Assembly (NCBI RefSeq): GCF_947503705.1
Contig: NZ_CANNES010000007.1
Location: 1-64,000 of the forward strand
Direction: 5' to 3'
Source of the DNA: an uncultured Tateyamaria sp.
GTDB lineage: Bacteria; Pseudomonadota; Alphaproteobacteria; Rhodobacterales; Rhodobacteraceae
DNA: 64,000 bases
This document shows positions 2,591-12,319 of this stretch, piece after piece. The notes beneath the pieces are model-generated. The model had not been told where the DNA came from and made no database searches. It saw only the letters and a list, made by a program, of their open reading frames with translations. A program made the translations under genes and the position numbers. Position 1 is the first letter of the stretch. Every line of letters starts with the position of its first letter.

Positions 2591-4429
2591 GTGAAAGACA
2601 TTACACAGGCTTGGCAAGATGCGCGCGCCGCCAAAGATCAGCTTGATCTCTCTGCCTCCGAAACATTCATGGTCTTCGTTATCAATCTGACCATGTCGCG
2701 CGATCAGGTGAAAACGCGGCTTGCAGGCGACCTGCAGGCCGCCGTTTCCGTCGAATTGGCGACTATCCCGATTTACCTCTACACCTATTATTCGATCAAC
2801 CGGACCCAAACAAACGGCCAGGACCTCAAGCCAAGTTCAAAATTTGCCAATAATGCCGGCGGTGCGATTATGTCCGTCGCGGTCGAAGAGATGCTGCACA
2901 TGTCCTTGTCCAGCAACATCTATTTTGCGCTGACGGGCAAACCGCCGACGCTCTATATGAATGCACCCGGATATTACCCGACAATGCTGCCGCATCATAA
3001 TCCAGTGGGCCCGCCCGGCCCCGGTGGTCCGACAGATGTGGATACCCACATTCCGCTGCGCGGTTTCAGCTTTGAACAGATGTGGCATTTCCTGCAAATC
3101 GAATATCCGATGAAACCGGTAGGCGTCGAGATTGCCGATGTAGACACACTGTTAGGGACATTTGACAAACGGATCAGCGACCTGAGCGAAGACACGATTG
3201 ATGGTGACGACTATGGCGCATTCCTCAAGGAGTTTGGCTGGCCCTCGGACGAAAACTGGAATTCCATTGGCCAGTTTTATTCCTACATCCGCTGCCTTAT
3301 CGCGTCCTCATTGATCACTGATGACGACTTTACCAACGGCGCACGTGCCTGCCAGATCCAGGCCTTTAACTATGCGCCGAACAATGTCGACACGATGTAT
3401 CCGACCGAGAAATTCAGCCGGGCCAAACCCGCCCCCAAGCCGACCGATCCCAAGGACAAACCAGCGCCGGGCACCTTGCCCAATGCCGCCTATGTCGCTG
3501 GCTACATGAACGAACCCGACAGCCATTCAGGCGATCATTCGAAGGATTGGGAAGAGGACGAAGAGCTGATTTCCGTCTCGTCCAAACAGGACGCCTTCAC
3601 CGCACTTGCGACCATCTGCGAACAGGGTGAGGGGTATGGCCTGCCAGAGGCCGCGACCACCGAACCCACGGGCAAAAGCACGGGAAGCCAGCATGACAAG
3701 GATGGCGAATGGCGCAACTACACCCCCGAAGACAGCCATTTCTGGAAATTCCTGCGCCTGCAATCGCGGTTCTCGGCCTTTGAGGACAGTGTCGAGCAGT
3801 TGCCGATGATGGCGGGGGCCCTGCCCTGGATGAAGGACGAGATCGACAAACTCAAGACACAGGCGGCCACCCAGGAGCAATATGATGCCAGCGGGTTGGT
3901 GTCGGGCGGCGTGGTCTATGACTATCCCAACAGCCCGGTCTCGGCGCAATATCCGCAGCCTTATTCCGAGATCAACGATTTCCTCTCGGGGCTGTTCCAA
4001 TACATGCTGATCCTGTCGGAAACGATCTATCTGGTGCCCTCCAACGGGGCCGAAGAGACCGGCGGCGTTGATCCGCAACATCTGTTCTTCAATCAGGCGC
4101 TGCACCGGTCGATGATCTGGGTGATGGACAAATACATCCAGTACATGCGCGAATTGCCGCCCCTGCCCTCAGGCCCCCATGCGGGCAAAACATGCGCGCC
4201 CACGTTCGAAAACCTCAGCCTCGGCACCCGCGAACAGGCTTTTGATGCGCTCAAGGTGCTTGGCGACAAGGCCATCGCCGCCGCCCATGTGCTGGACCCT
4301 TCGTCAACGCGGGTCAAAGAGCTGGTGGACCGGTCAGTCGATCAGCTGAGCCCGGATGGCAAACACTCCATGAACTTGCCGAACACAGCCGATTACTGGG
4401 TGGGCAACCTGCCCCAAACCCACGCCTGA
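2591..4429 (+). CDS. VioB-type ferritin-like domain protein
   Basis: 612 residues from a GTG start at 2591, chosen because AAAGGA lies seven bases upstream; an ATG at 2552 and the open frame back to 2372 lack this. The N-terminal third matches the ferritin-like domain seen in iminophenyl-pyruvate dimer synthase VioB: Glu55 in VELATIPIYLYTYYS and Glu100/His103 in VAVEEMLHM are plausible di-metal ligands on antiparallel helices. A Pro/Gly-rich loop follows, and a second helical half includes HFWKFLRLQSRF. No signal peptide, so cytosolic. It is the first gene of an operon with a cysteine-rich protein, an MNIO oxidase and a DUF2063 protein. It may be an additional tailoring oxidase or an iron handler for that system. 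Function is inferred from position only. Confidence 0.8.
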   Translation: MKDITQAWQDARAAKDQLDLSASETFMVFVINLTMSRDQVKTRLAGDLQAAVSVELATIPIYLYTYYSINRTQTNGQDLKPSSKFANNAGGAIMSVAVEEMLHMSLSSNIYFALTGKPPTLYMNAPGYYPTMLPHHNPVGPPGPGGPTDVDTHIPLRGFSFEQMWHFLQIEYPMKPVGVEIADVDTLLGTFDKRISDLSEDTIDGDDYGAFLKEFGWPSDENWNSIGQFYSYIRCLIASSLITDDDFTNGARACQIQAFNYAPNNVDTMYPTEKFSRAKPAPKPTDPKDKPAPGTLPNAAYVAGYMNEPDSHSGDHSKDWEEDEELISVSSKQDAFTALATICEQGEGYGLPEAATTEPTGKSTGSQHDKDGEWRNYTPEDSHFWKFLRLQSRFSAFEDSVEQLPMMAGALPWMKDEIDKLKTQAATQEQYDASGLVSGGVVYDYPNSPVSAQYPQPYSEINDFLSGLFQYMLILSETIYLVPSNGAEETGGVDPQHLFFNQALHRSMIWVMDKYIQYMRELPPLPSGPHAGKTCAPTFENLSLGTREQAFDALKVLGDKAIAAAHVLDPSSTRVKELVDRSVDQLSPDGKHSMNLPNTADYWVGNLPQTHA

Positions 4430-4451
4430 GACGAAAGAGAGACGCGTTATC

Positions 4452-5066
4452 ATGAGCAACGATTGCCAAACCAAAACCGCCGCCAGCAACGCGTGTGGCA
4501 CCCCAACCACCCGGCCCTTTGAACCCTCGGCCGATTTCAAGCGGGTGCCCGTGCCCGGCGAGGAACTGCACGCCTGCATGGGGCTCAACAACTGCGCAGG
4601 CCAAGACCGCTATGGCATGGACGGCGCGCCCGGATTTGCGCCCAACGATTGCGCCGGGCAAGGCTATTGCGCGACCACGCAAATGCACAGCTGTCACACC
4701 AACAACAACTGCGCCAATCAGGGTGGGTGCGGGCTTTATGGCTCCGAAAGCGAATTGAACCGCCCCGGTGCAAATGCCTGTCGGTCGATGGGATCCTGCG
4801 CGACCCCGATCAACGCTGAGCGGTTCATCACCACAGGCGCCTATCGTGGCACCAGCGTCTGGCACCGTGCGCGCGCCGTTTTCAAGGAAAGCTTTGATCC
4901 CAGCAAAGCAACCAAAGGACACACGCCGCAAAGCCCCAAAGACGCGCCGTCAGAGTTTCCCGATGGGCCAACATATGCGTGGATCACCACCATGCCCGAG
5001 GGCGAGCAATCGTCTTTTGCGGCCTGCGGGTCCAGCGGGATGTCGGGTGGCGGCAGCTGCGGATGA
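4452..5066 (+). CDS. cysteine-rich C-x5-C repeat protein, probable MNIO substrate
   Basis: 204 residues, no recognised family. Thirteen cysteines at 5, 15, 42, 48, 67, 73, 81, 87, 93, 110, 116, 192 and 203. Nine of them sit in C-x5-C units (42/48, 67/73, 81/87/93, 110/116), often in the context N/D-C-A-G/N-Q. The C terminus is Gly/Ser-rich and ends SGGGSCG; a Trp/Arg-containing segment (130-180) without cysteine lies between. There is no signal peptide, unlike bufferins. GAGAGACG precedes the ATG. The stop overlaps the MNIO start by four bases (ATGA), so the two are translationally coupled. I infer that this is the precursor modified by the MNIO enzyme, perhaps for binding a soft metal such as copper. 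Alternatives are a Cys-rich metal store or a structural protein. Confidence 0.7.
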   Translation: MSNDCQTKTAASNACGTPTTRPFEPSADFKRVPVPGEELHACMGLNNCAGQDRYGMDGAPGFAPNDCAGQGYCATTQMHSCHTNNNCANQGGCGLYGSESELNRPGANACRSMGSCATPINAERFITTGAYRGTSVWHRARAVFKESFDPSKATKGHTPQSPKDAPSEFPDGPTYAWITTMPEGEQSSFAACGSSGMSGGGSCG

Positions 5067-6010
5067 CGCGGGCGAGCGATCTTGCGGCGCTGCCTGAACT
5101 GGGCCTGGGCCTTGGGCTGCGCAATGTCCATTTTGAGCATATCCTGAACCATTGGCCCGCAGTCGACTGGTTCGAGGCGATATCCGAAAACTTCATGGAC
5201 AGTGGCGGCCGCCCCCGCGACGTGCTGCGCCGCGTGGCCAAACGTTACCCAGTGGTGCTGCACGGCGTGTCGCTGTCGATCGGGTCCACCGATCCGCTGG
5301 ACATGGAATATCTTGCACGCCTCAAGGCCTTGACGGCAGAGGTGTCGCCCGCTTGGGTCAGTGACCATCTGTGCTGGACCGGGGTCATGGGGCTTAACAG
5401 CCATGACCTCTTGCCTGTTCCCCTGAACGCCGAAACGCTGGACCACATCGCGGCACGGGTGCACAAGGTGCAGGACTATCTGGGTCGCCCCCTGATCCTC
5501 GAAAATCCATCCACTTATGTGAGCTTTCACGCCACCACCATGGACGAGCCTGCATTCCTGCGCGCCTTGGCCGAGCGGACCGGCTGTGGCCTGCTGCTCG
5601 ATGTCAACAATGTCTATGTGTCTTGCGTCAACGCGGGGACGGACCCCGCCACCTACCTACGCGCCTTTCCGATGGACCGCGTCGTACAGATGCATCTGGC
5701 GGGCCATACCGATCTGGGCACGCATATCATCGACAGCCATGACCAGCCGGTCCGGCCCGAGGTGTGGCAGCTTTATGCCCTGGCCTGCGCCATGACCGGC
5801 GGGGTGGCCACGCTGTTGGAATGGGACGGCAATATCCCCGACTTTGAGACTTGCCATGCCGAACTGCTGAAATCCAAGGCCTACCGCGACGGCGCCTTTC
5901 AGGATCTGGTGGCAGAGCGGAGCACGGCGATCTCGGCCAACGTCTCGAACCCGGTCCAGTTTCTGGTGCCCGGCATTGACGACGTCACGCATCTGGCGGA
6001 CGGTGCATAG
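5063..6010 (+). CDS. DUF692 multinuclear non-heme iron oxidase (MNIO, MbnB/BufB-like)
   Basis: 315 residues forming the DUF692 TIM barrel. Motifs in order: LGLGLR (15-20), FEAISENF (37-44), HGVSLSIG (67-74), SDHLCW (100-105), ENPS (147-150), LDVNNVYVS (179-187), MHLAGH (210-215), IDSHD (223-227) and LEWD (252-255). The His, Asp and Glu in these are the expected two- or three-iron ligands. Family members (MbnB, TglH, ChrH, BufB) oxidise cysteines of ribosomal peptides into oxazolone-thioamide, thiooxazole or related groups. The start codon overlaps the stop of the cysteine-rich gene, pointing to that protein as substrate. The four-gene order resembles bufferin and methanobactin loci, but the precursor type differs. 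Confidence 0.92.
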   Translation: MTRASDLAALPELGLGLGLRNVHFEHILNHWPAVDWFEAISENFMDSGGRPRDVLRRVAKRYPVVLHGVSLSIGSTDPLDMEYLARLKALTAEVSPAWVSDHLCWTGVMGLNSHDLLPVPLNAETLDHIAARVHKVQDYLGRPLILENPSTYVSFHATTMDEPAFLRALAERTGCGLLLDVNNVYVSCVNAGTDPATYLRAFPMDRVVQMHLAGHTDLGTHIIDSHDQPVRPEVWQLYALACAMTGGVATLLEWDGNIPDFETCHAELLKSKAYRDGAFQDLVAERSTAISANVSNPVQFLVPGIDDVTHLADGA

Positions 6011-6016
6011 CGGCCC

Positions 6017-6832
6017 ATGACCGAACTGAGCGAAGTCCAGCGCTGGATGCACAGTACGTTGTTGGCACCGGGCAGCGAAAGCCAGGCCCGGGCGGCTGAT
6101 TTCCTGACGCCCATGGCGCATCTGGATGCGGCACAGGCCCTGTCGATCTACCAGCGCAGCTATGCCTTGCGGCTGGCGGCCTGCATGCGCGAACAGTTTC
6201 CAGCCACCTGCCATGCTTTGGGAGCGGCGCTCTTCAATGATTTTGTCGAAACCTACGTCGCCGCTCTGCCCCCAGAAAGCTATACGTTGCACGATCTGGG
6301 CCGCCGCTTTGCCGGGTTTCTGGCAGATCAACGCCCCGACAAGGATGCCGCTGAAAAAGAAACCTGGATCGACTTTCTGATCGACTTGGCCCGGTTCGAA
6401 CGGCAAGTCTATGTCGCTCATGATTGCGACGGGGTGGAAAGCAGCGGCTTGGAAATGGCTGACCTCGCCACGCCTGACAGCGCCCTGGCCGTACAACCCA
6501 GCCTGACCGTGGCGGAATACGGCTTCGATGTTTCAAGTTATTTTCATGGCGTGCGCGCGGCCTCCGACCCTCCAATTCCGTCGGAACGCCCCTCATTCGT
6601 CGCCGTGCTGCGCGCAAATTACCAGACTACGACTGTGCCGTTATCTCATGCGCATTTCACCTTTTTGCAGGCTTTATGCGCAGGCGAAAACGTGGCCGCG
6701 GCGCTCAGCGCAGTTTCACATGCCCTTGGTCAAAGCGACGCGGATGTCAGGCGCGGGTGGGATGCGGGCAGCGCCACACGACAACGCTGGATCGATGCTG
6801 GGTTCTTTGTGAAACAGCCACCCGCAGCATAG
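6017..6832 (+). CDS. DUF2063 domain protein, MNIO partner (BufC/MbnC-like)
   Basis: 271 residues. The N-terminal ~95 residues match DUF2063 (often labelled putative DNA-binding domain): an initial helix LSEVQRWMHSTLL, then IYQRSYALRLAACMREQFP and a later Tyr/Pro-containing helix. The C-terminal half is less conserved. In methanobactin and bufferin systems the equivalent protein (MbnC, BufC) binds the MNIO enzyme and recruits the peptide, so the DNA-binding label is probably misleading here. It begins six bases after the MNIO stop, with little ribosome binding site of its own, so translation is likely coupled. It is the last gene of the operon. Confidence 0.88.
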   Translation: MTELSEVQRWMHSTLLAPGSESQARAADFLTPMAHLDAAQALSIYQRSYALRLAACMREQFPATCHALGAALFNDFVETYVAALPPESYTLHDLGRRFAGFLADQRPDKDAAEKETWIDFLIDLARFERQVYVAHDCDGVESSGLEMADLATPDSALAVQPSLTVAEYGFDVSSYFHGVRAASDPPIPSERPSFVAVLRANYQTTTVPLSHAHFTFLQALCAGENVAAALSAVSHALGQSDADVRRGWDAGSATRQRWIDAGFFVKQPPAA

Positions 6833-6895: not shown

Positions 6896-8941
6896 CTACT
6901 GGATGCTCACCACCGCAAGGATATCGCCAGGCAAACCAGGCAGGGCCGGGTCCGTCGGCGCACAGGGTGCGCCACTGGGGTTATTTGCCGGTTGGCCGCC
7001 TTTGCCCACATCCCCGGATTGCCCGTTGATGTATTGCGCCCCGTCAATCGAGGATTCGGACATGCCCGCAAACAAGACGCCAATCGAGGGGCCGCCATTG
7101 CCGCCTGCGCCAGCGCCACTCGATCCACTCCAACCGCCGGGACCACCAGCGCCGCCACCGTTGTCATTGCTGCCCGACCCCGGCGAACCGCCAGACCCAC
7201 CGGGGGCGGCCGCACCCGCGTCACCGCCATCGCCTCCCTTGCCCCCAAGGCCACCGGTAATGATCACATTGGCAAATGTAGGCACGGATTGGTCAGAGAC
7301 GTTCAGGCCAATCCAGGCGCCGCCCTGTTGGCCGCCACCCGCTTCGGTTGCGCCACAGCCACCGGCAGCCCCTCCGCCACCATGACCGCCATTATATTCG
7401 CTGAATGTGTGAGAACAGGCGCTGCCGCCACTGCCGCCACCGCCCGGCCCGCCGCTTTCCCCGGCTGTCCCCGGAGCGCTGACTGACGGCACCCAGGTTG
7501 TTCCGCTGACGCCGCCGCGTTTGGACGCGGTGGGCGTGCCGTTCACACCGCAGGTCCCATGCGTGCCACTGCCCCCCGTCGCGCCATATTTGCCCGACGG
7601 GCAGCTCAGCACTTTGCAGGCATTGGTGATATGGGTGAAGACGGCCCCGGCACCGCCCAGCGATCCCGACCCGTTGTTCCCCTCGCAATCCGAAGACGGA
7701 TTGCCTTTGCACGAATAGTGGCATTTTCCATCGTAGTAATCGGTCGTCTCGCCATCACCGCCATCGCCGCCAGTCCACCCGTTACAGGTATTTGCGCCGT
7801 TCTGACCGCTGCCATTGCCGCCCGTTACCCCCGCCGTCGAGGCCACGCCATCCGCGCCCGGCGCACCTTGTCCACCCGAAATCGTCAGGTTCTCGAAATG
7901 CACAGCCGATTGCGCCGTCATGGATATCGCAACAAACGGTGTCCCGTCCGTACCGCCCGGTTGACTGCCGAGGATGTTGAGGTTCTGGACCGTCGCGCCG
8001 GTGGTCGCGTTAAAGAGCATCGCGCGCGCACCTGCCGTCGTGTTGATCTGCGAGCGGTCGCCATCCGACCCGCCGGAGGCCAGACAGCCCCCGATCAGCG
8101 AAATGTCGTTGCTCGGAAATGACAGCGTATCGGCGGGCGTGTAAGAGCCATAGGCCACCAGAACGCCGCAGGTTGTTCCATCACCGCTGCATTGATTGAG
8201 GCCCGTCTGAATGGTCTTGCAAGCCGTTCCAGCCGATGTGCCACAACTGCCACTATCCGTCCCGGTGCTGGCGACATAGACCGCCTGCCCAAGTGTGGAG
8301 GCATCGAGCGCGGGACAGGACCATTCCAGCGTGGTTGCGTCAGCGGCTGTCGCGATTTGGGTGCCGCATTGTGGATTGGGCGCAGCCCCTGCCGCCACCA
8401 GCCAGGGCGCGAGGCGGTGCGCCTCGCAGCTGAATTGCGCATCTGTCACGTCCAGTGCACAGCCGCCGTCAGAAACCGCCTCGCGGACAAAGCCCTGATC
8501 GAAGTGCGCCCCCCGCATATCCGCACCCGCCAGGTTGGCACAGGACAGGTCGGCAAACCGAAACGTCGCATCGGATACGATCACCCCCGACAGGTTCGCA
8601 CCGCTCAGGTTCGCGTTGTCGAAGGAGGTCGGAACCCCCTCCAATGCGCCAAAGGACGAGGTGGACAAATCCGACCCGCTCAGGTCGGTGGAGCCAAAGC
8701 TGCTGCCTGACACCGAAAGGCCCGCAAGGGTCGCACCGCTGAAATCGGTACCGGTAAAGTTGGCGCCTTCCAGCGTGGTACCGCTGGGAATATCGGCCCC
8801 GGCCAACGCGCAATTGATGCAGGCGGCATCCACCGGCACACCTGCCTGAGGGTCTTCGGCTTGGGCCCAGGCGGATACCCCGCCAAGGATCACAGGGACA
8901 CATGCCAGAAGGACGGCCCGGGTTACACGATCAATCAACAT
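6896..8941 (-). CDS. exported pentapeptide-repeat / glycine-rich protein
   Basis: 681 residues. A Sec signal peptide ends near residue 27 (VSAWAQA). Residues ~45-150 are pentapeptide repeats of the A(D/N)LSG type (for example LSGSDLSTSSF, NLSGANLSG) that predict a right-handed quadrilateral helix. A conserved block near YVASTGTDSGSCGTS and SLIGGC follows, resembling parallel-beta-helix surface proteins. Residues ~350-650 are very rich in Gly, with many GGxGG runs and dispersed cysteines reminiscent of PE_PGRS or Gly-rich adhesins. AAGGAG precedes the ATG. It is the last gene of a three-gene operon, 15 bases after its neighbour. Probably secreted or surface-exposed; a role is not evident. Confidence 0.75.
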   Translation of the reverse strand: MLIDRVTRAVLLACVPVILGGVSAWAQAEDPQAGVPVDAACINCALAGADIPSGTTLEGANFTGTDFSGATLAGLSVSGSSFGSTDLSGSDLSTSSFGALEGVPTSFDNANLSGANLSGVIVSDATFRFADLSCANLAGADMRGAHFDQGFVREAVSDGGCALDVTDAQFSCEAHRLAPWLVAAGAAPNPQCGTQIATAADATTLEWSCPALDASTLGQAVYVASTGTDSGSCGTSAGTACKTIQTGLNQCSGDGTTCGVLVAYGSYTPADTLSFPSNDISLIGGCLASGGSDGDRSQINTTAGARAMLFNATTGATVQNLNILGSQPGGTDGTPFVAISMTAQSAVHFENLTISGGQGAPGADGVASTAGVTGGNGSGQNGANTCNGWTGGDGGDGETTDYYDGKCHYSCKGNPSSDCEGNNGSGSLGGAGAVFTHITNACKVLSCPSGKYGATGGSGTHGTCGVNGTPTASKRGGVSGTTWVPSVSAPGTAGESGGPGGGGSGGSACSHTFSEYNGGHGGGGAAGGCGATEAGGGQQGGAWIGLNVSDQSVPTFANVIITGGLGGKGGDGGDAGAAAPGGSGGSPGSGSNDNGGGAGGPGGWSGSSGAGAGGNGGPSIGVLFAGMSESSIDGAQYINGQSGDVGKGGQPANNPSGAPCAPTDPALPGLPGDILAVVSIQ

Positions 8942-8956
8942 ACCAATCTCCTTTTC

Positions 8957-11900
8957 TCACGTGTTTGTGGATGGGAACGGGGGCAACCACTGGCCGATTG
9001 CAGGCACGGTGCGTCCCCCGGGGCCGGTCCCGTCACCGCCGGGGCCGCTTGGCGCGCCGCTGGCATCCGTCACCATGGCGTAGTTCAGGCTGTACATCTG
9101 GTGCCACATATCGGCGAAAATACTGGCCGCTGACGCCCCTGTCGTAACGACAAGTGGATTGGTGGTCGGCGCCTTCAGGCCGTATTCGTAAATCGCCAGG
9201 CAGTAATCGCCAGGTTGGACGCCTTCGGCCGGGTCCGGTGGCGTCTGATAGAGCACGTAGATATAGGTTTGCTTGAGGTCACCCACTGCGCACATGTCGA
9301 GATAGGTGTAATCCCCCGCCCCTTCCAGCGACAGGAATGGCGACAACCCACCATTACTGTCGTGAAACCGCTTTACCGGGTCGCCCGCCACGTTAAAGGC
9401 CTGAATGCGCGCCAATGCACCATATGTCACAAAGGTGTCGCTGCCATGGGTGCTTTCCAGCACCAAAACGGTGCCGTCATAGGCGCAGGTCACCGCGACG
9501 GGCCGAAACAGCAGGCCCGCGCGCCCGTCCTGCAAGGCCTGACCGGCGAAATCCGTGGCCAGCGGCGCGTCTTCATCTGCGACGCCGGTGGGGGAAATCG
9601 GCACAATGCTCAGCTTGCAATTGGCGTCGTTGACGCCGATCGCATGGCCCGACGGGTGAATCGTCAGCGAGGTCGGGAAATAGGTAAACCGCCCATAGCT
9701 CGGTTGATCCGCACTGGTGTCGATGGTCACCGGCGAGGTCGACAGATCAATCCTGCGCAGATGATAGCCGCCGCCCTGAACCGTGGGGGTCGCCGCCGTG
9801 CGCGGATCAACGAAATAGTCCCCAAGGCCCGGATCATTCGGATCGGGCGTCGGCGTCGGCGGATCGGTATCCGTCATCTCCCAATTGCCATCGGCGTCCA
9901 TGAGAAACTTGGGCGGATAGGGGTCATAGACCATGCGCGTAGGTCCTGTGAACCCACAGGACGGAAAGGCCGCATCGGTCATCTTGGTGCCCGGGATATT
10001 CACGTTCTGCATCGCGTAAAGCTGGCCACCGGTGCCGTTCACACAGTCGGTGATGCCCATCCCGGCGGCCTTCCACGCAAAGCCCAACATGCCATACCGC
10101 TGGCTGAGGGTGATGCCGTTCCAGACCGAAATCGCATTCCCGCTGGAGCCAGTATCCGCAACGGCCTCGGTCGCAGTCGGGTTCTGATCCACCGTCTCGT
10201 AGCCATAGGCGCCGTCCTGATAAATCAGCTGCGCGGTTTCGGCATAGATCGAGTTTTCGTCCAGCGGGATCGGGTTCTGCACCAAGGCGAGGGTGATCTG
10301 GGCCGCGTTGGCCTCGTTATTGTCGAACCAGCCGCTGCTGGCCTGCGCCGCGGTCCACCCGTTTACGTAATAGCTGACCTCGATCTTGATCTGCCCGCCC
10401 AAGGTGTTCTTGGGGAACGCCACGGCGAGCATATCGGTATTCAGCGCTGGCACCTCGGCACGGGCCGTCACGGCGGGGCGCTTGCCGCCCTTGTAGCTCA
10501 TAGTGACAACAAGCTCTGCCGCCTCGGACGGATAGGGATAGGCCCCACCGGCGCGCGGATCGGGTTCCACGGATACGGTAGAGGTGATGGTCGACACGAC
10601 GCCCACCGGAATGTGCCAGGGCGAGGTCACGACCTCGACGATGGTTTCGGCCAATTCCGCAATGCCCACCGACAGGTTCAGCGCAAAGAGGATCCAGCCG
10701 GCAAAAGGAACTTCCTCTGCCACTTCTTCTGCGGCCATCTCCGCTTCGATGAACAGCAACAACTCAAGCGACACCGGATCGAACAGCACCTTGGCGATTT
10801 CGATCAGATCCGCCCAGTCGACCTCCTTGTCGGCGATGGTACCGGTAAGCGCCTCATAGAAATAATAGCCCGCCTCGCCAATCGCCTTCCACCAGTCCTT
10901 GTTGAGCTGTTTGCGCACCTCGGCCTTGGTCGGGCCATTGGACAGGTCCGATGCCGCACCCGCCAGCATCACAGCAGGGACAACCATGTTCATGATCACC
11001 GTGACCGCAGCCCCGAAAATCACGGTCTTGGGATGATCCATGGACCCTGCAAGGCCCAGGCCCGAGCCAAAGAATTTGGCCCCCACCGCACCTTCGGGCA
11101 TTGTAATGTCAAACGAGACACTCGCCTCGGCAGTGGGGATACCCAGCACCGTCACCACGCCGCTGGTATAACCGATCAACTGGGTGTCGGGATATTCAAT
11201 CAGGTCGCCCAAACCGGCACGGATGACCTTGATCGTTGTGTCGGGATTGTCCGGCTGCCAAGGCGGATCGAGCTGCGTCAGATCAATGGTGTTCCCTTCA
11301 GCGTCATAGAATTGAACGTAGACACCCAGATAGCGCAGGTCGCGATCCGTGAAGGTCAGAGTATAGCTCTTGGCATCCGAATTGATGTCCGACACGGACA
11401 TCTGCACCCCATCGGTACGCTGGCCATTGGTGACAGCGACGGTCCAGTCGTCACTGGCGGTATCGGCGGCACTGGTCACCGCGACGGTCGCGAGGGGCTG
11501 CAACTGCGCGGCAAGGGAGGGTGCCACCGGATCAGGGTGATCGGGGGCATCCGCAGGCACGGTGTTCGTGCCAAACTGGACGTCCCACTTGATGTTTTGC
11601 AGCGCCGGTGAGTTCATCGCCACCTGCATCAGTTGTGTCTGCACCGGCCCTGCCTGGGCCTGATAGGCATCGCCCGGGTTCAGGAAAAAGCTGTTGATGC
11701 CCGGATAGCTGACCACCGTGCCATCGGGTGCCGTCCCCGTCACCGACGGGTCGGCGGGACGCTCGAACTTCACCAGGGTTGCCCAACCGGCCCCCGGGGT
11801 GGTCGACGGACGGCCAAGGGTCCGGATCAGGGTGCCAAGCGCGTTGAAACCTTCGGCGATCACCGCGTTTTGCTGCATCATGTCGGTGATGGCCTTGGCC

Positions 11901-12319
11901 GCATCGGTGTTGCCGGTGATCAGATTGGGGTGATGAAAGGCCAGCGCCTCGGCGGTCGAGATATAGTCGATCGCAAAGCTGGCCGCCTCACCCGCCGCCG
12001 GCGTGACGATGATGGCGGTCAGAAAGGGGATATCGGGGCTGTCCACTTCGCCCGCCACCACGGTTTTGGTCAGTTTCACATGCACGCGCAGCACGTGACC
12101 GGCGGGCACGGAAACATCCGCCGCATAGTGGGTCAGACGGTCATCAGACACCTTGGCAAGGCGCGGCAAGGCCTTGCGAGCCTTGGCGCGGGACGCATCG
12201 TCGTGGCGGTGCAAAACGTGACGCTTGCCGCGCGCAACCAGCACCGGAACCTCGTGATCCAGCGCATCCGAAAGATCGATGTGAAAGCTTGCACTGGCCG
12301 ATCCAATATCTTGGGGCAT
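8957..12319 (-). CDS. large orphan protein, unknown function
   Basis: 1120 residues with no signal peptide and no domain I recognise. The N-terminal part contains HVLHRHDD and a helical segment. Residues ~410-540 include hydrophobic stretches (VIMNMVVPAVMLAGAA; PFAGWILFALNLSVGIAEL) that could be membrane-inserting, and the C-terminal ~400 residues are beta-rich with Asp/Pro/Gly turns and aromatic residues, compatible with a propeller. The tail is Gly/Pro-rich. AAGGA precedes the ATG. It lies between two exported pentapeptide proteins (39 and 15 bases away), so joint function with them is likely. The hydrophobic centre plus repeat-like tail could suit a toxin or large surface protein, but that is speculation. 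Confidence 0.75.
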   Translation of the reverse strand: MPQDIGSASASFHIDLSDALDHEVPVLVARGKRHVLHRHDDASRAKARKALPRLAKVSDDRLTHYAADVSVPAGHVLRVHVKLTKTVVAGEVDSPDIPFLTAIIVTPAAGEAASFAIDYISTAEALAFHHPNLITGNTDAAKAITDMMQQNAVIAEGFNALGTLIRTLGRPSTTPGAGWATLVKFERPADPSVTGTAPDGTVVSYPGINSFFLNPGDAYQAQAGPVQTQLMQVAMNSPALQNIKWDVQFGTNTVPADAPDHPDPVAPSLAAQLQPLATVAVTSAADTASDDWTVAVTNGQRTDGVQMSVSDINSDAKSYTLTFTDRDLRYLGVYVQFYDAEGNTIDLTQLDPPWQPDNPDTTIKVIRAGLGDLIEYPDTQLIGYTSGVVTVLGIPTAEASVSFDITMPEGAVGAKFFGSGLGLAGSMDHPKTVIFGAAVTVIMNMVVPAVMLAGAASDLSNGPTKAEVRKQLNKDWWKAIGEAGYYFYEALTGTIADKEVDWADLIEIAKVLFDPVSLELLLFIEAEMAAEEVAEEVPFAGWILFALNLSVGIAELAETIVEVVTSPWHIPVGVVSTITSTVSVEPDPRAGGAYPYPSEAAELVVTMSYKGGKRPAVTARAEVPALNTDMLAVAFPKNTLGGQIKIEVSYYVNGWTAAQASSGWFDNNEANAAQITLALVQNPIPLDENSIYAETAQLIYQDGAYGYETVDQNPTATEAVADTGSSGNAISVWNGITLSQRYGMLGFAWKAAGMGITDCVNGTGGQLYAMQNVNIPGTKMTDAAFPSCGFTGPTRMVYDPYPPKFLMDADGNWEMTDTDPPTPTPDPNDPGLGDYFVDPRTAATPTVQGGGYHLRRIDLSTSPVTIDTSADQPSYGRFTYFPTSLTIHPSGHAIGVNDANCKLSIVPISPTGVADEDAPLATDFAGQALQDGRAGLLFRPVAVTCAYDGTVLVLESTHGSDTFVTYGALARIQAFNVAGDPVKRFHDSNGGLSPFLSLEGAGDYTYLDMCAVGDLKQTYIYVLYQTPPDPAEGVQPGDYCLAIYEYGLKAPTTNPLVVTTGASAASIFADMWHQMYSLNYAMVTDASGAPSGPGGDGTGPGGRTVPAIGQWLPPFPSTNT

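Follow-up and report, generated by a model that had tools for sequence, protein, structure and literature searches.

The closest described relatives of the locus reported here are the BufA2 bufferins and captophorins, in which a Cys-rich gene lies just upstream of the gene for a BufB-type multinuclear non-haem iron-dependent oxidase (MNIO), accompanied by a DUF2063 partner (PMC12452194; PMC13097082). Bufferin-1 and its relatives carry 5-thiooxazoles, and MNIOs that depend on PME1 partners have been proposed as broad makers of this group (PMC13097082); PME-type 1 partners have been tied to precursors that bear a signal peptide (PMC12452194). We analysed a 64,000-nucleotide (nt) stretch of an uncultured Tateyamaria sp. 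(contig NZ_CANNES010000007.1, positions 1 to 64,000; hereafter the window), and confirmed at 2591–6832 a tightly spaced quartet of forward-strand genes encoding a ferritin-like protein, a Cys-rich protein, an MNIO and a DUF2063 protein, the first two lying 22 nt apart, the middle two overlapping by 4 nt and the last two lying 6 nt apart (Table 1). The original prediction, made from the letters of the window, had described four coupled forward genes of these types, and the coordinates and Pfam matches bear it out. The quartet shares with the BufA2 systems related CxGxNxC / NxCxGQxxC motifs in the Cys-rich protein. By contrast, its Cys-rich protein is longer, has a C-terminal Cys motif and shows no Sec signal, and a ferritin-like protein is adjacent or fused to it in all 73 loci that we found in other genomes and describe below.

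The four-gene unit is rare and scattered, because a survey of the order found the Cys-rich protein in three of 292 genomes (the window's genome, G072 and G167; labels with G denote genomes and labels with L denote loci), and the Cys-rich profile found the window's genome and G385 among 398 genomes of the phylum. A weak match of this profile in G425 fell on two BufA2-like precursors that adjoin an MNIO, and a match in G081 in the order survey (E 2.7e-4) was not counted, as it has two in-frame stops and overlies other reading frames. We then scanned a collection with one genome per species (84,980 species) using two peptide patterns taken from the Cys-rich protein, a procedure that partly forces the conservation of those peptides and misses members lacking them. 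The scan returned 73 loci, in Pseudomonadota, Bacteroidota, Myxococcota, Acidobacteriota and Actinomycetota, the last two represented by metagenome-assembled genomes only. Profiles built from the window proteins located a ferritin-like gene, adjacent or in frame, at 73/73 loci, the MNIO at 72/73 and the DUF2063 gene at 71/73, counting as present the broken genes of L013 (ferritin-like protein and partner each in two frames), L048 and L084. The full quartet was present in 71/73, and the three missing genes would fall past contig ends (L078, L067). Gene order and strand were identical across the 73 loci, and split ferritin-like/Cys-rich pairs were separated by no more than 325 nt with the open reading frames (ORFs) as called. 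Each locus had one Cys-rich copy; the sole second match, in L032, contains a run of Ns and duplicates the final part of the first copy. Pairwise identities of the four proteins correlated over 68 loci (r 0.68–0.86, against a permutation maximum of 0.14; six loci were left out by name). The joint conservation on which the original prediction had staked its case therefore extends far beyond the genus, with the ferritin-like protein as a fixed component. A plasmid search with the Cys-rich protein gave zero matches.

We also ran the test in reverse, using the full-length ferritin-like profile on the 398 phylum genomes with a match threshold of 1e-5. Fourteen genomes matched; full-length matches were confined to the window's genome and G385 (581 and 631 bits), and the others scored at most 92.5 bits. 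We checked about 6 kb on each side of the matches in the 13 other genomes (less at contig ends) with the cassette profiles. G385 held the cassette, G534 held a divergent cassette, and partner genes were not found within about 6 kb of the PF12902 matches in the other 11 genomes, indicating that the PF12902 domain alone is not predictive of the cassette. In a survey of the class, 25 of 58 genomes had an MNIO.

The window's ferritin-like protein matched PF12902 at 106.1 bits (cut-off 22.3). We know of no settled function for this family. The residues E55, E100, H103, E171, E347 and H383 form a candidate set of four Glu and two His diiron ligands, and all six are invariant in the 70–76 of 77 aligned sequences that cover those positions; E99, E380 and H505 are likewise invariant (one comparison of these proteins used 62 of 66 non-redundant sequences). 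The predicted model of the protein (predicted local distance difference test score, pLDDT, 84.3; predicted template modelling score, pTM, 0.89) had its best fold match in CC_0557 of Caulobacter, also a PF12902 protein (PDB 3hl1; E 1.9e-5; TM scores by query and target, 0.35 and 0.69). CC_0557 has all six ligands at aligned places, the last two through a weak second stretch, and differs in having a chain of 317 residues rather than 612. The ligand set and predicted fold would suit a diiron site. The protein had originally been called VioB-type, and the shared PF12902 domain, with a weak match over the ferritin-like stretch of this violacein-synthesis protein (E 0.014), accounts for that likeness; membership of VioB itself is rejected, since the window protein scores 13.2 bits on TIGR04492 against a cut-off of 1250. 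A parallel combination of ferritin-like domain and metal-binding tail occurs at L144 5186–7570 (G662), where a PF12902 protein has, at its C-terminus, a Fer4_19 domain and a pair of CDGSH iron-sulphur domains.

The window's Cys-rich protein gave zero matches in a Pfam scan. It contains 13 Cys and five C-x5-C pairs, compared with a mean of 0.75 pairs in shuffled sequences (at least five pairs arose in 6 of 20,000 shuffles). An alignment of 77 sequences, which left out the repeat loci L001, L003, L004, L009 and L010 and the BufA2 locus L012, revealed a core motif HACMGLNxC..NxCAGQGxC..HxCHxxNxCxxQGGC..NxCxxxGSC. The window protein and similar members also have a C-terminal CGxSGxSGxGxC, and Cys occupies the C192 and C203 columns at frequencies of 0.99 and 0.97; a further comparison took in 73 of 76 sequences. 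No hydrophobic stretch was found in the 60 N-terminal residues of the window protein (best 12-residue mean 0.59), judged by a crude hydrophobicity scale rather than SignalP, whereas three bufferin precursors gave 1.7, 2.2 and 2.7 by the same measure. None of the 76 Cys-rich relatives exceeded 2.0; among split relatives L060 alone exceeded 1.7, and its start may have been called too early. The prediction of a large unsignalled protein with C-x5-C units is thus upheld, at 204 residues, with five pairs and no export signal seen on this crude scale. With the BufA2 model, 57 of the 74 family sequences gave matches at E <= 0.01 (the best at 5.2e-7), the window's own not being among them; by this profile most of the Cys-rich proteins are BufA2-related. 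L047 (Kordia) has an extra N-terminal run of NGCGSSGSS-like repeats on its Cys-rich protein, for a total of 22 Cys.

The family may also overlap the published adjamnio-I group, with which it was compared by description only. As given in Table 2 of PMC12452194, adjamnio-I proteins have no signal peptide, 122–293 residues and 8–21 Cys and are encoded upstream of an MNIO, a description that the window protein fits (204 residues, 13 Cys). In the major adjamnio-I layout the partner is of PME-type 2; the cassette partners scanned instead match DUF2063, in 68 of 68 cases at E <= 0.001. A published PME-type 2 protein of Plesiocystis pacifica, whose genome has five MNIOs, could not be assigned to the cassette.

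The window MNIO, which we aligned to PDB 3bww, matched PF05114 at 357.8 bits (cut-off 25) and the NCBI bufferin-maturase (BufB) model NF050167 at 359.8 bits (cut-off 310). Its partner matched PF09836 (DUF2063) at 62.2 bits (cut-off 27.2) and the HvfC model at E 4e-13 and 49.6 bits, under the model cut-off of 142. Both DUF2063 and HvfC were matched by all 68 scanned partners, the criterion being E <= 0.001 rather than the Pfam cut-off for each member; one partner comparison took 67 of 74 partners, the remainder being cut or broken. The genome has a second MNIO at L002 (contig C3, 158209–159003), in a bufferin-1-like operon with a signal-bearing precursor, DUF2063-like and DoxX-like genes (assigned by eye except for the MNIO). 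The sole PF12902 gene of the genome is that of the window, and none lies at L002. In Sphingomonas echinoides ATCC 14820 (L029), by comparison, no MNIO other than that of the cassette was found.

In phylogenetic trees, with bootstrap values that had not fully settled, the cassette MNIOs formed one clade (support 99/98), and together with two divergent fused cassettes they formed one clade against 13 others (100/92), the divergent pair being sister to the cassette MNIOs. A quick tree left out L006 and L011 (sequences as L021 and L034) and the broken L084, and kept 23 of 30 outside MNIOs, seven having failed a hand-typed motif filter; a careful tree left out nine outside MNIOs with long branches. 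Among the 30 outside loci, seen mostly with 1.5-kb flanks, only L096 (G693) has a ferritin-like gene, and this locus is one of the divergent fused cassettes. The other, in G534 (L142 2635–6264), encodes a 658-residue ferritin-like protein with its own Cys-rich tail, followed by the MNIO and a DUF2063 gene. The six ligand positions are kept in both (by eye), and their tails, with 12 and 14 Cys in open frames, space the Cys differently; G534 and G693 are best described as a divergent second subfamily of the cassette. In the G693 cassette (L148, from 4336), too, the ferritin-like protein with its Cys-rich tail is followed by an MNIO and a DUF2063 gene. Outside the cassettes, the MNIOs nearest to that of the window (L088, L086, L012 and L090) are each accompanied by short precursors of BufA2-like type, whose matches to the Cys-rich profile range from E 2.9e-5 to 7.2e-15. 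Because of these precursors and the BufA2 profile matches, we infer that a BufA2-type system gave rise to the cassette. At L012 the precursor genes are in tandem (870–1238 and 1417–1677), upstream of a single MNIO.

In 21 of the 73 loci the ferritin-like and Cys-rich parts are a single polypeptide, with the ferritin-like part first and the Cys-rich tail after it. G167 (L007), outside the 73, is also fused, and the G385 locus has the sequence of L034 and was not counted twice. Fusion of the ferritin-like part to the MNIO or the partner occurred in none of the 73. On the best MNIO tree the fused state changed at least four times (quick tree) or at least six times (careful tree), and well supported branches alone require one change; repeated fusion or fission is likely. 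Fusions of bufferin-type domains to metal-related domains have been described, namely MerC-Buf, Buf1-cytochrome c and Buf_EGKCG-EF-hand, although among precursors that bear signal or membrane segments, and the word "ferritin" was not found in the main text of that paper (PMC12452194). Fungal PF12902 genes near lodA/lodB likewise lie beside genes of an oxidase built post-translationally, but that quinoprotein system belongs to fungi, and no MNIO is mentioned in the accessible text (PMC4417212). Our literature search, whose coverage did not extend to most subscription papers, found no paper linking an MNIO with a ferritin-like protein, VioB or PF12902; in their accessible parts, a Caulobacter copper paper mentions DUF692 and ferritin unconnected to each other, and a Haemophilus paper mentions both DUF2063 and ferritin.

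We propose, with confidence about evenly divided, that the quartet works as a maturation cassette, whose four parts together yield a cytosolic two-metal protein consisting of a diiron part and an MNIO-modified metal-binding tail. The ferritin-like protein would fold as a helical bundle able to hold a diiron site, as its invariant ligands and predicted fold suggest. The Cys-rich protein, whether the product of the adjacent gene or the C-terminal tail of the same chain, would be a BufA2-related substrate with no export signal, mostly unstructured according to the predicted model. The DUF2063 partner would present this tail to the MNIO, which, by analogy with bufferin and captophorin chemistry, would convert Cys of the C-x5-C units to 5-thiooxazoles. 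The one-to-one copy number and the fusions suggest that the modified tail would then bind a soft metal, copper being the likeliest, next to the diiron domain; the product would be a carrier or a redox enzyme that combines a diiron site with a thiooxazole metal site. More tentatively, the thiooxazole tail may be a built-in metal or redox cofactor of a diiron ferritin-like enzyme, such that a modification of the type found in ribosomally synthesized and post-translationally modified peptides would complete a heterometallic enzyme in the cytosol, in cis or as two chains, rather than make a secreted metallophore; the CDGSH/Fer4_19-tailed protein of G662 (L144) is a parallel to such a cofactor tail. 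The original claim of a different class of MNIO system holds in part: the ferritin-like protein is fixed and no export signal was seen, but the system is not wholly separate, given the BufB score (359.8 against 310), the DUF2063/HvfC partners (68/68) and the BufA2 matches (57/74).

In the chief alternative, the ferritin-like protein is itself a diiron oxidase, the second oxidase of the cassette, and tailors the Cys-rich protein either ahead of the MNIO or after it, with fused forms acting on their own tail. Borosin precursors, which act on their own tail, offer a comparison for the fused forms. In favour of such an enzyme, the ferritin-type ligands are invariant, the ferritin-like gene is a fixed neighbour of the substrate gene, and fusion is to the substrate rather than the MNIO; with a single Cys-rich copy at every one of the 73 loci, and with 21 fusions, the enzyme would nevertheless be a single-turnover or nearly single-turnover catalyst. 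We consider this oxidase possible but less probable than a cytosolic diiron protein with a modified tail, which remains our choice at an even level of belief; because there is one Cys-rich part for each ferritin-like part in the 73 loci, fused or adjacent, we favour two halves of one product over an enzyme and its substrate. A role in supplying or storing iron for the MNIO, the iron-donor idea of the original prediction, would agree with the predicted ferritin fold and with the two or three iron ions that MNIOs require (PMC13419390). Fusions join the ferritin-like part to the substrate and, among the 73 loci, never to the MNIO or the partner, and the genome's second MNIO, in the bufferin-like operon, does without a PF12902 gene; we regard iron supply as highly improbable.

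The BufA2-like motifs and BufB-type MNIO would also be expected of an ordinary large bufferin or metallothionein-like copper sink, beside which the ferritin-like gene is incidental. Co-occurrence at 73/73 loci with 21 fusions argues against its being incidental, no signal peptide was seen on the crude scale, and DoxX was absent among the scanned flanking genes of the window (pirin, H-NS, a pentapeptide protein and one gene with no Pfam match), making a copper sink unlikely. Finally, the cassette could provide one step of a pathway that oxidises a small molecule or a peptide, involving a DyP-type peroxidase, a P450 and a glutathione S-transferase (GST), in which the Cys-rich tail is a carrier. 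The recurring neighbours are suggestive, with a P450-like gene and one unknown gene at five loci, a second unknown gene at four, a DyP-like gene at six and a GST gene at three, and a THAP4-like gene 4–50 nt upstream at six. Yet 58 of 73 loci lack DyP-like, P450-like and THAP4-like families in the flanking DNA covered (by simple ORF clustering, which can miss genes), and the Pfam scores are weak, that of THAP4 falling under its cut-off; we give this pathway very little credence.

Several observations weigh against a cytosolic diiron protein with an MNIO-modified tail. The model of the fused L030 protein of Methyloglobulus (pLDDT 77, pTM 0.69) is mostly confident in the bundle, but ten-residue blocks of the tail have pLDDT of 29–76, above 70 only at residues 661–700 (72–76), and no confident packing or docking of the tail is predicted. 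The ligand set is equally suited to an oxidase acting on the tail, and the DyP-like, P450-like and GST genes near some relatives point to additional oxidation steps. The BufA2 model is not matched by the window's own Cys-rich protein. PME1 partners go with exported precursors according to PMC12452194, whereas here a DUF2063 partner accompanies a putative substrate on which no signal was seen. The N-terminus of the window's ferritin-like protein, TFMVFVINLTMS, scores 1.7 on the hydrophobicity scale, a poor test for this N-terminus, and thereby equals one true bufferin precursor; export of the ferritin-like part may occur, which weakens a cytosolic placement. The whole chain of modification and metal binding is itself a prediction from sequence, model and analogy.

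The loci tie an MNIO and its partner, across phyla, to a ferritin-like protein by way of a neighbouring or fused substrate, and hint at an undescribed sort of enzyme-built metalloprotein. Known settings of MNIOs include peptide metallophores, bufferins and other ribosomally synthesized and post-translationally modified peptides. Were the tail modified, MNIO chemistry would be extended to maturing a diiron-type protein, and the PF12902 family would gain a testable role. The natural fusions simplify such a test to one substrate protein and two maturation proteins.

Table 1. Features of the four-gene cassette, in window coordinates.
Feature	Positions	Strand	Evidence
Ferritin-like PF12902 protein, 612 residues from GTG	2591..4429	+	Pfam
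Cys-rich protein, 204 residues, putative MNIO substrate	4452..5066	+	Composition, alignment, shuffles, N-terminal hydrophobicity
Cys-rich core C42–C116, five C-x5-C units, nine conserved Cys	4575..4799	+	77-sequence alignment, shuffles
C-terminal motif with C192 and C203 of the Cys-rich protein	5025..5060	+	Alignment columns
MNIO (DUF692, MbnB_TglH_ChrH), BufB type, 315 residues	5063..6010	+	PF05114, NF050167, alignment to 3bww
DUF2063 partner (PME-type 1 / HvfC-like), 271 residues	6017..6832	+	PF09836, HvfC model

At the GTG start of the ferritin-like gene, AAAGGA sits 7 nt upstream, and in L014, L018 and similar relatives the sequence upstream of internal ATGs of this gene is kept (both by eye). 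An anti-phage role for the cassette was rejected, as PADLOC gave zero matches at E <= 0.01 for its four proteins.

Neighbouring gene families in the relatives, each named from one scanned member, include DyP-like, P450-like, GST and THAP4-like genes, and hint at peroxide or oxygen chemistry. The P450-like gene and its unknown companion occur together at L018, L021, L022, L027 and L028, with the second unknown gene at four of these five loci, a DyP-like gene at four and GST at three, in varying orientation. THAP4-like genes were found in eight loci, and in six of these (L058, L059, L064, L049, L037 and L041) the gene, with a weak match to the haem-binding THAP4 family, lies 4–50 nt upstream of the ferritin-like gene. 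The N-terminal half of its product presumably resembles a LecA-type lectin. In the window itself, the cassette is adjoined on the opposite strand by a gene (6896–8941) for a 681-residue pentapeptide-repeat protein whose C-terminal part is Gly-rich, and a gene near it on the same opposite strand (8957–12319) encodes a 1120-residue protein with no Pfam match.

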